A DNA stretch of 64,000 nucleotides from Piscirickettsiaceae bacterium (GTDB lineage Bacteria; Pseudomonadota; Gammaproteobacteria; Nitrosococcales; Methylophagaceae), in assembly GCA_024685995.1 (NCBI GenBank), contig JAIBDY010000004.1, forward strand, positions 1 to 64,000. The letters are read 5' to 3'. Each line of letters begins with the position of its first letter. Position 1 is the first letter of the stretch. Both the position numbers and the translations under genes were made by a program. Under the pieces are notes generated by a model, which ran no database searches, was not told the origin of the DNA, and saw only the letters and a list, made by a program, of their open reading frames with translations. Of this stretch, positions 56,095 to 64,000 are shown one piece after another.

Positions 56095-57132
56095 ATGCGG
56101 GTATTAATCATCAAACTCACCTCAATGGGTGATCTTATGCATGCCTTACCTGCGTTGACAGATGCCGCACAGGCAATCCCCGGGATTGAGTTTGATTGGG
56201 TAGCCGATAAAACGTTTTCAGAAGTGCCACTTTGGCATCCTGCTGTTCACCGCGTCATCACAACGGCGCATCGGCAATGGAAAAAAAACGTGATTCAATC
56301 TTGGCGTGATGGCTTGTTTAGTGAGTTTAATCGGCAATTAAACCAGCACGATTACGATCTAGTCATCGATCTTCAAAATAATATGAAAAGCGCCACGGTA
56401 TCTTGGTTTTACAAAGGCGATGTTCACGGCTTGGATAAAGGCTATTGCCGAGAGAAGTTTGCTTATAAAGCCTATAAACACCGTTATGCTATTCCAGCGA
56501 ATCAACACGCAATAGATAGAATGAGGCAAATTTTATCGCAAACGCTATCTTACCCCTTGCCCGATACTGCCCCTGACTATGGCATTGACTTTACGCAATA
56601 TGACTTACCGATATTAGACTTTGACTTACCTGAAAAATATTTAATCTTTGTCCATAATGCCAGCTGGTTAAGCAAGCTTTGGCCGCTCGCATCTTGGCAA
56701 GGCTTAGTGAATAAAGCGGTTGAACAAGGTTATTCGGTATTATTGCCTTGCGGTAATGATGAAGAATATCAACGCGCGCAACAGATAGCCGCTGTTAGTG
56801 AATACGCTTATGCCTTACCCCGACTCTCACTGAATGAGGTGGCGGCGTTAACACACCGTGCCCAAGGGGCGATGTGTAGCGACACCGGCTTGGCTCACCT
56901 TGCCGCTGTGGCGGGGATCCCTACACAAACGTTGTATGGTGCAACCGATACACATCTCATTGGCACGGTCGGGAAAAATCAACACCATATTGTGAGTGAT
57001 CTCATCTGTGCGCCTTGTTATAAGCGATCCTGCCCAAGACCGGAAGCGGTCAAGGGAGCCCCGGTTTGTATGGACCAGATATCAGTCGATATGGCTTGGC
57101 ATAGACTCGCCGAGATTTTACCCGCACAATAA
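56095..57132 (+). CDS. waaC: LPS heptosyltransferase I
   Basis: A 345-aa GT9 glycosyltransferase adding the first L-glycero-D-manno-heptose to Kdo2-lipid A at the inner membrane. MRVLIIKLTSMGDLMHALPA is the typical start (with the catalytic Asp region); HNASWLSKLWP and SDTGLAHLAAVAGIPTQTLYG bind ADP-heptose. CAPCYKRSCP near the C-terminus is common in WaaC. It precedes hldE, which makes its donor substrate. Confidence 0.93.
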   Translation: MRVLIIKLTSMGDLMHALPALTDAAQAIPGIEFDWVADKTFSEVPLWHPAVHRVITTAHRQWKKNVIQSWRDGLFSEFNRQLNQHDYDLVIDLQNNMKSATVSWFYKGDVHGLDKGYCREKFAYKAYKHRYAIPANQHAIDRMRQILSQTLSYPLPDTAPDYGIDFTQYDLPILDFDLPEKYLIFVHNASWLSKLWPLASWQGLVNKAVEQGYSVLLPCGNDEEYQRAQQIAAVSEYAYALPRLSLNEVAALTHRAQGAMCSDTGLAHLAAVAGIPTQTLYGATDTHLIGTVGKNQHHIVSDLICAPCYKRSCPRPEAVKGAPVCMDQISVDMAWHRLAEILPAQ

Positions 57133-57181: not shown

Positions 57182-58633
57182 ATGAAAACGACTTTTCCGA
57201 ATTTACAAGGTAAACAAGTACTGGTCATTGGCGACTTGATGTTAGACAGCTTTTATCATGGTAAAGCCAACCGTATTTCACCCGAAGCCCCGGTGCCAGT
57301 GGTGAATGTGGAGCGTGTCGAAGAATTGCCAGGTGGCGCTGCTAATGTTGCAATGAATATCGCTTCCTTGGGGGCACGTTGCAAGATTAGCGGTATTACA
57401 GGGCAAGACCATGCTGCAGAGATACTGCAGCAACGGCTTAATTCGGTTGGGGTTGATTGCGTATTTCATCGCTCGTCGACAACCGAAACTATCATCAAGC
57501 GACGTGTGATTAGTAATCATCAACAACTGCTGAGAATGGACTTTGAAACCCCATTTGAAACCGATGAGTGGCAAGCGTTAAAACCGATAGTCGATGTGGT
57601 GATGGCGGAGACAGCAGTTATGGTGCTGTCCGATTACAATAAAGGCACGCTAGCGGAACCACAATATTGGATTCAATTAGCCAAACAATACGGCATTCCG
57701 GTGTTGGTTGATCCGAAAGGCGATGATTTTACCAAATATCAAGGTGCAGACTTAATCACCCCGAATATGACGGAATTCGAAGCCATTGTCGGCAAGATCA
57801 CGTCAGAACAAGACCTAATAGACAAAGCGCAACAGCTGATTGCTAAGCTCGATATTGGTGCGTTATTGATCACGCGTAGCGAACACGGCATGTCGTTGAT
57901 TCGTCCGAATCAAGTAGCGTTCCACCTACCCGCCATAGCCAAGGAAGTATCTGATGTTACTGGTGCCGGGGATACGGTGATTTCGGCACTGGCGACAGTG
58001 TTGGCTGCGGGTGAAGATATTGAAACGGCAGTGACATTATCCAATGTAGCAGCCAGTATTGTGGTGAGCAAGCTAGGTACGGCGACGGTCAGTGAACCCG
58101 AACTGAAAGTGGAATACCAACGACACCAAGGGGACAATAATACCGACCACAGTATCGGTGGTGTTGTCACTGTCGACCAGCTTAAATTGGCTGTACAACA
58201 AGCCAAACAACGCGGCGAAAAAGTGGTGTTCACTAATGGTTGCTTTGATATTCTTCATGCAGGGCATGTCAGCTATTTAGCCCAAGCAAGAGCACAAGGT
58301 GATCGCCTTGTTTTAGCGATTAACTCTGATGAATCCGTCACTAAACTCAAAGGCCAAGGCCGTCCGATCAATTCCGTCGATCGTCGTCTAGCCGTCTTGG
58401 CGGGTTTATCTTCTGTCGATTGGGTGACAAGCTTTGAAGGCGATACGCCAGAAGCCCTATTAATCGAAATCCAGCCCGATGTGTTAGTGAAAGGTGGTGA
58501 CTACGATAAAACCGGCGTTGTGGGTTGGGAGATTGTTGAAGGGTATGGCGGTGAAGTTCGGGTCATGGGCTTGGTGGAAAATTGTTCGACGACAGCGATT
58601 GTGGAAAAAATTGAGCGGGATAAATCTGCCTGA
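57182..58633 (+). CDS. hldE: Bifunctional heptose-7-phosphate kinase / heptose-1-phosphate adenylyltransferase
   Basis: A 483-aa two-domain enzyme producing ADP-heptose. The N-terminal ribokinase-like domain (about 1-320) has GDLMLDSFYHG, PGGAANVAMNIASLGA and DVTGAGDTVISALA. The C-terminal nucleotidyltransferase (about 345-483) has VFTNGCFDILHAGHVSYL and ends with VENCSTTAIVEKI. I chose the ATG at 57182 (MKTTFPNLQGKQ); no ribosome binding site is clear, and an upstream reading frame runs into waaC. With gmhB at 23690 this completes the late heptose pathway except gmhA and hldD. Confidence 0.93.
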   Translation: MKTTFPNLQGKQVLVIGDLMLDSFYHGKANRISPEAPVPVVNVERVEELPGGAANVAMNIASLGARCKISGITGQDHAAEILQQRLNSVGVDCVFHRSSTTETIIKRRVISNHQQLLRMDFETPFETDEWQALKPIVDVVMAETAVMVLSDYNKGTLAEPQYWIQLAKQYGIPVLVDPKGDDFTKYQGADLITPNMTEFEAIVGKITSEQDLIDKAQQLIAKLDIGALLITRSEHGMSLIRPNQVAFHLPAIAKEVSDVTGAGDTVISALATVLAAGEDIETAVTLSNVAASIVVSKLGTATVSEPELKVEYQRHQGDNNTDHSIGGVVTVDQLKLAVQQAKQRGEKVVFTNGCFDILHAGHVSYLAQARAQGDRLVLAINSDESVTKLKGQGRPINSVDRRLAVLAGLSSVDWVTSFEGDTPEALLIEIQPDVLVKGGDYDKTGVVGWEIVEGYGGEVRVMGLVENCSTTAIVEKIERDKSA

Positions 58634-60951: not shown

Positions 60952-63177
60952 TTGACTCCTCGATTCCATTATTATTTGCGTTCAGCAAAGCATATTACGC
61001 ATTCCCTTGTTAAGTCTAGGTTTTGGTCCGTGCATTCGCCTATGGTGCAACCGGGCGTGACCATTGACAATGACTTCTTTGGGATTAATATTGCGCCGTC
61101 TGCTGATCCTCAAGTTGATGATTTTATTATTGAACAGTTACAGGCATTGGGCTTGCAGCATGTTCGGATGAATTTCACTTATGATTCATTGGGCGGCTAC
61201 GCGGAAAGGTTATTGAAGCGCGTTATCGCCGCAGACTTTAAAGTGTTGTTGGACTTGATTCCCCCATTTCAAGATGCCAAGAAATTCACAGCCAGTGCAC
61301 AGCAGCGATGGGCAGATTTTTTGAATACCATTGCTGAAAAATATGGCGATAAATTGACGGCCATTGAGATAGGTTCAACCCCAAATCGCGGCCGTTGGTC
61401 TGGTTTTGAACCTGCAGATTATTTAATTGCCTGGCGTATCTCCAATGAGACTTTAAAGCCGTTAGGAATTATTTTAGCTGGCCCGAATGTGTCGGATTTT
61501 GAGCCTTTATGTAGTATTCAATTGCTCAGTGAGATGCAGTTGCAAGGCCATGCGCCCGATATTTACACCAACAATTTATTTGTCGAACGGGTGATTCAAC
61601 CAGAAGCCTATGACCATCGCGTATTAGGCAAAGCCATGACGTATATGATGCGAATTAACTTGGTTAAAAAATCGCGCATTATGGCGGCAATTGGCCGTGA
61701 CTATGGTGTTGACAAGACGATCTGTACTTATAAGTGTTGGTCGAGTAAACGCTTACGCCGTTGGTCAGTAAAACCTGAGCGAAAAAAGTCAGATTATTTA
61801 ATTCGTTATTTGGTGCTTGCCGCGACAGCAGGCGCCTTAAGTAAAGTGTACTGGGGACCGTTGATTTGTAGTCGAGATGGTTTAATCAGCGATGGTTCAA
61901 CAGGCTACCCAGTGATTGACAATGTCACTTTTTATAAGCAAGTTCGTGGTGATTTTGCCAACTTTGAAATCCGAGAAGCATTTTATGCCTATGCCAATCT
62001 GATCAAATTATTATCGGGTGCGTCCTGTATTCAAGCGGTGAATGCCGATAAGGGATTGCATCACTTTATTTTTAATACCGCAGACCAAAAACAGTTACAC
62101 ATTGTGTGGACCCAAGATCGTGGTTGTGTTGATGCAGAACAACTTTATAGCCGACAACAATTAGATAGTGGACATGTACTCGATGCGTTGGGTGAAGCAC
62201 AGCCGCAATCAGTATTGAGTTTTGGCGAACGGCCGACGTTTATTGTGTTTGAACAGCCAGAAACCTTAAAGCACAACGTACAACAACTTGCATACATAGC
62301 AGCGCAGCCGCATGGCGTTGCCTTTGGCATGATGGAAGAGATACGTTATCTACCTTGGACAGAAGGAAAGTGGCGCGGTGCGGTCGCAGTGAAGCCAGGC
62401 GAAGAGGCCAAGACCAAAGCACAAACCTTGTTACCGGGATCATTATTAACCGCGCCACAATTATCGGTCCATCGCGATCAACGTAACAAAGTATGGAGTA
62501 TTCAACACCCTTTAGATCCAACTGATACGATCGTGGTCAAAGAAAATCGGGCGCGGGGGATCAAAAAGTTTACCTATCGTTTTAAAGCCAGCAAAGGTCA
62601 ACGTCATTGGAATAATGCTTGGGAAATGTTGCGGCGGGGCGTCAAGAGCCCAACCCCAATCGCCTATTTTGAACAAACAGAAAACGCAGGCATTACGCAT
62701 AATTATTATGTTTGCGAGTACGTCGATGCCGCATTTTCAGTGCGTGATGCTTTCACCGCTTTCGGCGAAGGGCATGATAGTTACCAAGGTTTTAGTAAAG
62801 AAAGCATTATCAAAGCCGTCGCCGACTATAGCTGCAATATGCACGATGAAAAAATCATTCATCACGATCTGACTGGTGGTAATTTATTGGTTACAACCGA
62901 GAATAATGACATTAATATCACTGCCATTGATATTGGTAGAGCAACAATTTATATGACAAAACGCGTTAGCGAGCGTGAGCGTTTGCTCGATCTGATGCGT
63001 TGTTGTTATAAATTGAACTGGCCAAATCGTGAATTATTTATGGATTATTATTTTGAGGCTTATGGTGGCAAATTTGCCCAGCGCTGGAAGACATCATTGA
63101 GCTATTATGATTGGAAATTAAGGGCCAAGAAAAAATTAAAACGCATCTTAAAAGGCAAATGGAAAAATCTTAAATGA
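60952..63177 (+). CDS. Glycosidase-like / WaaP-InaA kinase fusion protein
   Basis: A 741-aa two-part protein. Residues about 35-440 resemble a clan GH-A TIM-barrel glycosidase: FFGINIAPS, LGLQHVRMNFTYD, KVLLDLIPPF and EIGSTPNRGRWSGFEPADY follow the strand order of GH39/GH5-like enzymes. At the usual acid/base site (NEP) it reads STP, so hydrolysis is doubtful. Residues about 505-735 form an LPS-kinase-like domain with Lys in TIVVKEN (about 530), HHDLTGGNLL (about 637-646) and DIGRA (about 660), all kinase essentials. The TTG at 60952 is the only start before an upstream stop; an ATG at 61042 is the alternative. The acyltransferase gene overlaps its stop. A role in surface glycan modification is inferred. 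Confidence 0.7.
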   Translation: MTPRFHYYLRSAKHITHSLVKSRFWSVHSPMVQPGVTIDNDFFGINIAPSADPQVDDFIIEQLQALGLQHVRMNFTYDSLGGYAERLLKRVIAADFKVLLDLIPPFQDAKKFTASAQQRWADFLNTIAEKYGDKLTAIEIGSTPNRGRWSGFEPADYLIAWRISNETLKPLGIILAGPNVSDFEPLCSIQLLSEMQLQGHAPDIYTNNLFVERVIQPEAYDHRVLGKAMTYMMRINLVKKSRIMAAIGRDYGVDKTICTYKCWSSKRLRRWSVKPERKKSDYLIRYLVLAATAGALSKVYWGPLICSRDGLISDGSTGYPVIDNVTFYKQVRGDFANFEIREAFYAYANLIKLLSGASCIQAVNADKGLHHFIFNTADQKQLHIVWTQDRGCVDAEQLYSRQQLDSGHVLDALGEAQPQSVLSFGERPTFIVFEQPETLKHNVQQLAYIAAQPHGVAFGMMEEIRYLPWTEGKWRGAVAVKPGEEAKTKAQTLLPGSLLTAPQLSVHRDQRNKVWSIQHPLDPTDTIVVKENRARGIKKFTYRFKASKGQRHWNNAWEMLRRGVKSPTPIAYFEQTENAGITHNYYVCEYVDAAFSVRDAFTAFGEGHDSYQGFSKESIIKAVADYSCNMHDEKIIHHDLTGGNLLVTTENNDINITAIDIGRATIYMTKRVSERERLLDLMRCCYKLNWPNRELFMDYYFEAYGGKFAQRWKTSLSYYDWKLRAKKKLKRILKGKWKNLK

Positions 63178-64000
63178 GAGATGATGGCATTGATATTCTC
63201 AGGGCCATAGGCTTATTGATGATTATCCTTGCACATGTTTCACCGCCCGATATAGTTTTCCAAATGCGTAACTTTGATGTACCTCTGATGGTTTTAGTCT
63301 CAGGCATGGCTTTTGGACTGAGTTATAAGAGGAGTGAAGCCTATCTCGCGTATCTATGGAAGCGGTTTCAAAGGCTCGCTTTCCCCGTTTGGATTTTCTT
63401 GACCGTATATTTTACATTTCAACTGGTTTTTGATTTTTTACCCAGTCCAGCTATCGTATTAAGCTCATACCTTTTTTCGGGCGGGATAGGGTTTGTATGG
63501 ATAATCAGGGTTTTTTTACTAGTCGCTTTGGTAGCGCCTCTGCTATATAACTATCATAAGGCAACAAAGTCACATACTCAGTATTTTACGGTTTTAGGCA
63601 TTTGTTTTATTTGTTACGAAAGTTTGCGTTATATTTCTATGCCTTATCTGGATAACGAGATAGCTGGAAAAGTCGGGCAAATAACGCATTATATTATCCC
63701 CTATTCAATCATATTTGCTGTCGGTTTGAGGTTGACAAGGCTAGAGAAGAAAAAAGTGGGCCAGCTCGCAACAGGCAGTTTTCTTATTTTTTCTTTAATA
63801 GCGGGGGCTTTGTGGCAAAGTACGGGTAGTTTTGTACCCACCCAAGCTTTCAAATACCCACCGTCGATATATTACTTTTCTTATGCTGTGTTCATGTCTT
63901 GTGTGTTGTGGCTTTACAGCGCGCGGATAGAAAGTTTGATGATTCAGCTGCAGATAAAAGAAAAAATTCTGTTTATAGCGCAAAACTCTATTTGGATGTA
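63174..64000 (+). CDS. Acyltransferase family 3 membrane protein (partial)
   Basis: The reading frame runs off the window after 275 codons. It begins with MRDDGIDILRAIGLLMIILA followed by HVSPP, the R/D...LRA...H pattern of Acyl_transf_3 (OafA/WecH-type) proteins, with the catalytic-type His in the first helix region. About eight to nine hydrophobic segments follow, and FIAQNSIWM at the edge corresponds to the conserved S-WIY segment near the end of the domain. These enzymes O-acylate surface polysaccharides or LPS from acyl-CoA. The ATG overlaps the stop of the fusion gene (ATGA), so the two are translationally coupled. Confidence 0.82.
   Translation, partial: MRDDGIDILRAIGLLMIILAHVSPPDIVFQMRNFDVPLMVLVSGMAFGLSYKRSEAYLAYLWKRFQRLAFPVWIFLTVYFTFQLVFDFLPSPAIVLSSYLFSGGIGFVWIIRVFLLVALVAPLLYNYHKATKSHTQYFTVLGICFICYESLRYISMPYLDNEIAGKVGQITHYIIPYSIIFAVGLRLTRLEKKKVGQLATGSFLIFSLIAGALWQSTGSFVPTQAFKYPPSIYYFSYAVFMSCVLWLYSARIESLMIQLQIKEKILFIAQNSIWM

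Follow-up and report, generated by a model that had tools for sequence, protein, structure and literature searches.

A heptose/LPS locus in the window, the 64,000-nucleotide stretch of DNA analysed here, ends with an open reading frame (60952..63177, + strand) in which a pseudo-GH39 domain is followed by an LPS-type kinase. It begins with TTG and runs for 741 codons without an internal stop, giving a protein of 741 amino acids. Upstream are genes that domain matches identify as a GT9 heptosyltransferase of the LPS core locus (56095..57132, +) and an HldE-type enzyme of ADP-heptose synthesis with PfkB and cytidylyltransferase domains (57182..58633, +). Downstream, an OafA-like acyltransferase_3 gene, also assigned by domain match, overlaps the fusion by 4 bp (63174..63998 in the window, continuing to contig position 64181, +). 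This gene adjoins the fusion in the window genome only and is not a core part of the arrangement. Past the window the contig carries genes for an aldo-keto reductase, an FAD oxidoreductase, a gmhA-like SIS protein, a triple-kinase ORF, a GT4 and GalE-like and YrbL-like proteins.

Homologues of 739–811 amino acids, the full length of the fusion, occur in 30 or more genomes. We therefore regard the fusion as a real gene; the same-length proteins exclude a chance ORF, a broken frame or a fusion created in assembly. The TTG start coincides with the ATG start of one homologue (L008). A sequence-only reading of this DNA had placed a glycosidase-type and an LPS-kinase-like domain in one ORF, and the intact frame and its homologues confirm this. 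The same reading supposed the layout to be undescribed, and we likewise found no described protein of this architecture in the open-access literature, to which the search was confined. The protein is best described as an LPS-type kinase carrying a retired GH39 domain.

Full or near-full fusions were detected in 35 of 95 sampled relatives (protein search, E < 1e-100): 14 belong to the same genus, one of them decayed, one to another genus and 20 to a third. Among 369 genomes sampled across the class there was one more fusion, from a different gammaproteobacterial family (G133, 811 amino acids), and a contig collection yielded another, from a metagenome-assembled genome labelled Halieaceae (L010, 43% identity). 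A phylum-level sample of 249 genomes contained no fusion besides that of the window; no relatives were found on viral contigs, and only distant kinases on plasmids. These genome samples show an architecture that is old and conserved and, within the range that they cover, confined to Gammaproteobacteria. A protein whose N-terminal half carries no domain annotation is thus shared by at least three genera of one uncultured, probably marine family, by a second family and by the Halieaceae-labelled genome. A small genome of the same genus, nearly complete, contains a decayed copy with several stop codons (L043:9544-11767, G018:C3).

The N-terminal half matched no family among the Pfam and NCBIfam models, and PDB sequence profiles gave nothing usable; LRR matches in the latter search were short, repeat-driven artefacts and were discarded. 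The full-length AlphaFold model was too poor (pLDDT 49.6), and residues 36–449 were folded alone instead, with a mean pLDDT of 62 and a pTM of 0.48. When this model was compared with the PDB using Foldseek, the first three ranks were all GH39 structures, namely PslG (9g17 and 4zn2) and 5jvk, with E values from 3.5e-12 (PslG, the best) to 2.9e-10 over about 450 alignment columns. GH5 and GH30 structures ranked lower, and 4F2hc was also among the fold matches. As a structural check on the glycosidase assignment this gave a mixed picture: GH39 held the leading ranks, but the second half of the barrel was poorly modelled and TM-scores to PslG were only about 0.33, a low value that we attribute to that half being unresolved in the model.

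Profile comparison bears on the same question. A GH39-like profile, built from GH39-like proteins of other gammaproteobacteria, matched the fused family with an hhalign probability of 95.8 (E 7.4e-9) and the fused family together with its standalone relatives with a probability of 98.1 (E 9.7e-14). The first member of this profile (L054) matches GH39 beta-xylosidases (E 7e-10) and PslG (8e-5), and by itself retrieves the standalone barrel relatives at E 5e-6. A control profile of the aldo-keto reductase barrel gave no match (probability 0.2–0.3), and GH113 was rejected as the parent family (2–20). The Foldseek, hhalign and negative-control results delimit a GH39/PslG-like TIM barrel at residues 36–345 (61057..61986, +), followed by a C-terminal beta-rich domain and linker at residues 346–499 (61987..62448, +), placed from the secondary structure of the model. 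These results support a clan GH-A barrel with a C-terminal beta-domain, probably closest to GH39/PslG, with low to moderate confidence in the model itself; the clan GH-A pattern proposed from sequence is upheld.

PslG, the GH39 endoglycosidase of the Pseudomonas aeruginosa exopolysaccharide Psl, resembles the N-terminal half in its fold, in its combination of barrel and C-terminal beta-domain and in the register of the beta4 motif. It is likewise a glycosidase tied to a polysaccharide biosynthesis locus. PslG retains both catalytic glutamates (acid/base Glu165 and nucleophile Glu276; PMC11912335), whereas the fused protein replaces both and continues into a kinase. The GH39 acid/base motif EIWNEPN aligns with EIGSTPN at residues 139–145 (61366..61386, +), placing Thr143 at the position of the glutamate, and in a joint alignment the motif reads E[IV]G-[SATN]-T-x-N across the fused family. 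All 30 fused homologues aligned have Thr here, and all 30 keep E139 and N145. The STP noticed earlier where NEP is expected is therefore a family-wide feature. Among PDB GH39 chains, 2bfg has Ala in the acid/base slot (WNAPN) and the others read WNEPN.

The change extends beyond this single motif, since the beta7 nucleophile glutamate is lost as well. With the register set through the standalone relatives, which retain TE, the TE of GH39 aligns with TY or PA in the fused proteins, the glutamate being replaced by Tyr in 15 of 30 homologues and by Ala in the other 15. In the window protein this position falls in Y260-K-C-W263 (61729..61740, +), of which W263 is invariant. The beta6 active-site H-x-Y of GH39 is also missing; just after its position lies E212-R213 (61585..61590, +), invariant in 30 of 30. 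Judged by the catalytic residues of GH39, of which the acid/base and the nucleophile are both replaced, the barrel is a pseudo-glycosidase, and we predict that it has no retaining glycosidase activity.

Other residues have been fixed in their place. In the beta5 loop, D182 and E184 of the DFE motif (residues 182–184; 61495..61503, +) are invariant in fused and standalone forms but not in GH39. Across the fused barrels D182, E184, E212, R213, D221, H222, R223, K239, K240, W263, R267, W301 and R308 are invariant. The basic invariant positions (R72, R146, R213, H222, R223, K239, K240, R267 and R308) are numerous, which would be compatible with an anionic ligand.

We read nine standalone relatives of the barrel, about 350 amino acids long with one longer. 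This family is homologous to the fused barrel (hhalign probability 99.5, E 7e-23) and has the D182/E184 motif in common with it, but carries no kinase domain and has lost only the acid/base: this residue is absent from all nine (GNA[VS]NR or GHAINR) while the beta7 glutamate is retained (TExNWP or SEMNWP). The counterpart of E212 is Asp or Asn. A living series therefore runs from GH39 with both glutamates, through standalone proteins with one, to fused proteins with none, and the losses may have occurred historically in the order acid/base, then nucleophile. The standalone GH39-like family is unannotated (L041:9423-10475, L042:1921-2976, L050-L053, L060-L062); in some families its genes have trmB or rpiA-like genes, and not glycan genes, as neighbours. 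In one genome of the same genus as the window (G028), in which no intact fusion was found, a standalone barrel gene and a separate PF06293 kinase gene share an LPS core locus that also carries two GT9 heptosyltransferase genes and genes for a GT2, an O-antigen ligase and a lipid A acyltransferase. This gene pair is the separate-gene counterpart of the fusion.

Selection on each part was estimated as dN/dS (Nei–Gojobori) on pairs with finite, unsaturated dS. The barrel gave values of about 0.01–0.04 in seven of eight pairs and 0.16 in the eighth, the kinase 0.04–0.07, and the beta-domain with linker 0.06–0.19. Purifying selection is thus stronger on the barrel than on any other part of the protein, and the beta-domain/linker evolves fastest. 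These values rule out a degenerating pseudogene, and the barrel is not decaying. Low dN/dS combined with the loss of both glutamates indicates that the barrel is kept by selection, yet not for GH39 hydrolysis. The series offers living intermediates of a glycosidase that loses catalysis in two steps and is still under strong selection.

Pfam assigns the C-terminal half to PF06293 (E 6.4e-11, 42.5 bits against a gathering score of 21.3), which places a WaaP/Kdo-type kinase domain at residues 500–735 (62449..63156, +), and it matches the WaaP structure 6dfl at E 5.2e-7. The catalytic Lys530 (62539..62541, +) was assigned by comparison with WaaP K51 (PMC6147952). The catalytic loop is HHDLTGGN at 637–644 (62860..62883, +), and the Mg-binding motif is D660-I-G-R663 (62929..62940, +). 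K530 is present in 29 of 30 homologues, E558 of alphaC in 28, and D639, N644, D660 and R663 in all 30, bearing out the earlier observation that the Lys, HxD, Asn and Asp of the kinase are kept. In WaaP the equivalents of E558, D639 and D660 are E78, D163 and D188, while N644 falls at H168 and R663 at the substrate-binding R191. Growth of P. aeruginosa stops when WaaP lacks K51, D163, D188, H168 or R191 (PMC6147952). With the WaaP catalytic residues retained, we expect an active kinase that handles its substrate in the manner of WaaP.

The fusion kinase is not WaaP itself. It shares with the WaaP/PF06293 heptose kinases the Lys, the Glu, the two Asp residues and the substrate Arg, but differs in having Asn644 for His168 and an additional N-terminal pseudo-GH39 domain, and it is not an ortholog. 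Assignment as the heptose I kinase sensu stricto was rejected (26 bits against an equivalog cut-off of 170), and the RfaP/WaaP equivalog is instead the first domain of the adjacent triple-kinase ORF (337.9 bits). The domain is only 22–23% identical to the heptose kinases of its own cluster, and this divergence, together with the Asn at His168, means that the substrate cannot be predicted from the kinase sequence. A basic C-terminal tail (YDWKLRAKKKLKRILKGKWKNLK; 63106..63174, +) could contact the membrane; hydropathy analysis predicted no transmembrane segment in the fusion protein.

In the group to which the window belongs, the fusion lies near genes for a gmhA-type SIS protein, a triple heptose-kinase ORF, a GT4 and a YrbL-like protein, and carbamoyltransferase genes stand beside the fusion in several LPS core-type loci. 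The window-group locus resembles the waaP-wapP-wapQ/wapO core locus of Pseudomonas, a cluster that also holds a carbamoyltransferase gene (PMC8005017). LPS core-type neighbours were present in seven of the 20 loci compared (the window, L007, L008, L009, L085, L076 and L090). Co-location with LPS core genes thus holds for the window subgroup and two more divergent copies; elsewhere, in the other genus as well as in the remaining sublineages, it fails, and we reject strict coupling as a general rule. The remaining loci have housekeeping neighbours, some with a 2OG-Fe(II) oxygenase gene. Such a gene lies at most about 1.2 kb from the fusion in 12 genomes of two genera; the pairing is not obligatory, since other fusion genomes lack the oxygenase. 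The oxygenase genes beside the fusion are small (L075:12041-12694, L076:9541-10161, L080:7832-8488, L083:12370-13047 and L090:637-1257). The oxygenase–fusion pairs of G015 and G019 each have a carbamoyltransferase gene next to them, and the G015 pair lies within an LPS core locus.

Little is understood of how kinases acting on LPS and other envelope glycans select a single hydroxyl within a branched structure. Our best explanation, to which we give about an even chance, is that the barrel recognizes a glycan in cis and guides a cytoplasmic, membrane-associated kinase of an envelope glycan, probably the LPS core. The sequence-only reading had suggested such a device for recognizing and phosphorylating a surface glycan, and we find that suggestion plausible. 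An ancestral PslG-like GH39 endoglycosidase would have lost its acid/base, as at the standalone stage, and then its nucleophile; the altered barrel would have been fused to a WaaP/InaA-type kinase and retained as a glycan-binding module. It would hold one segment of the LPS core under assembly, or of a comparable anionic glycan of the envelope, and so offer a sugar hydroxyl to the kinase, which would transfer the gamma-phosphate of ATP onto it. WaaP-type kinases work at the inner membrane face during core assembly, and the absence of a transmembrane segment together with the need for ATP suggests that the fusion should act there too. Glycan binding by the barrel, the LPS core as substrate and cooperation in cis are inferred parts of this proposal. 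The GH39 identity, the loss of both glutamates, the intact kinase residues, the constraint on the barrel and the separate genes of G028 speak for it, as do the many invariant basic residues of the barrel and the LPS core-type neighbours in the window group; the minority of loci with LPS-type neighbours and the divergent kinase speak against it. Klotho and 4F2hc/CD98hc are precedents as pseudo-glycosidases that retained the fold after catalysis was lost and were reused for recognition, although they belong to other GH families, are eukaryotic and lack a fused sugar kinase. A conserved kinase joined to a retired glycosidase domain is a naturally occurring system in which the idea of a substrate-reading module can be put to the test.

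The loss of both catalytic glutamates under strong conservation would fit a protein-docking or regulatory scaffold equally well, a role with precedents among pseudo-glycosidases such as Klotho; the barrel would either tether the kinase to a complex for glycan assembly or control it allosterically. The fusion gene is also often situated outside glycan loci. We nevertheless consider this rather unlikely, because the invariant residues, as read from the alignment, group at the C-terminal ends of beta4–beta8, the sugar cleft of GH39, and not to a surface patch. That cleft might instead house a new catalytic site (D182, E184, E212, R213 and H222), making the protein a bifunctional enzyme and kinase. 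The barrel is constrained as strictly as an enzyme, D182 and E184 are invariant in both forms though absent from GH39, and E212 is invariant in the fused proteins; against this, E212 is replaced in the standalone forms, beta7 accepts both Tyr and Ala, and we know of no clan GH-A chemistry that uses the positions of D182, E184 and E212. We judge a re-tooled site improbable; if true, one protein would remodel and phosphorylate an envelope glycan by chemistry that clan GH-A is not known to use.

A further alternative concerns the substrate, which could be another envelope or lipid-linked glycan made with the 2OG-Fe(II) oxygenase, the LPS location in the window group being secondary. The recurrence of the oxygenase gene close to the fusion and the absence of LPS neighbours from most of the second genus favour this idea. 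It seems doubtful to us all the same: the co-occurrence is not obligatory, the pairs in G015 and G019 adjoin a carbamoyltransferase gene, that of G015 within an LPS core locus, and G028 has the two halves as separate genes in such a locus.

The triple-kinase ORF that follows the window (L006:6877-9108, contig 66877-69108) encodes 743 amino acids and comprises three consecutive LPS-kinase-like domains. Its counterpart in L076 consists of two genes, one for WaaP and one for a double kinase, which suggests that a waaP-wapP-wapQ-like fusion arose stepwise.
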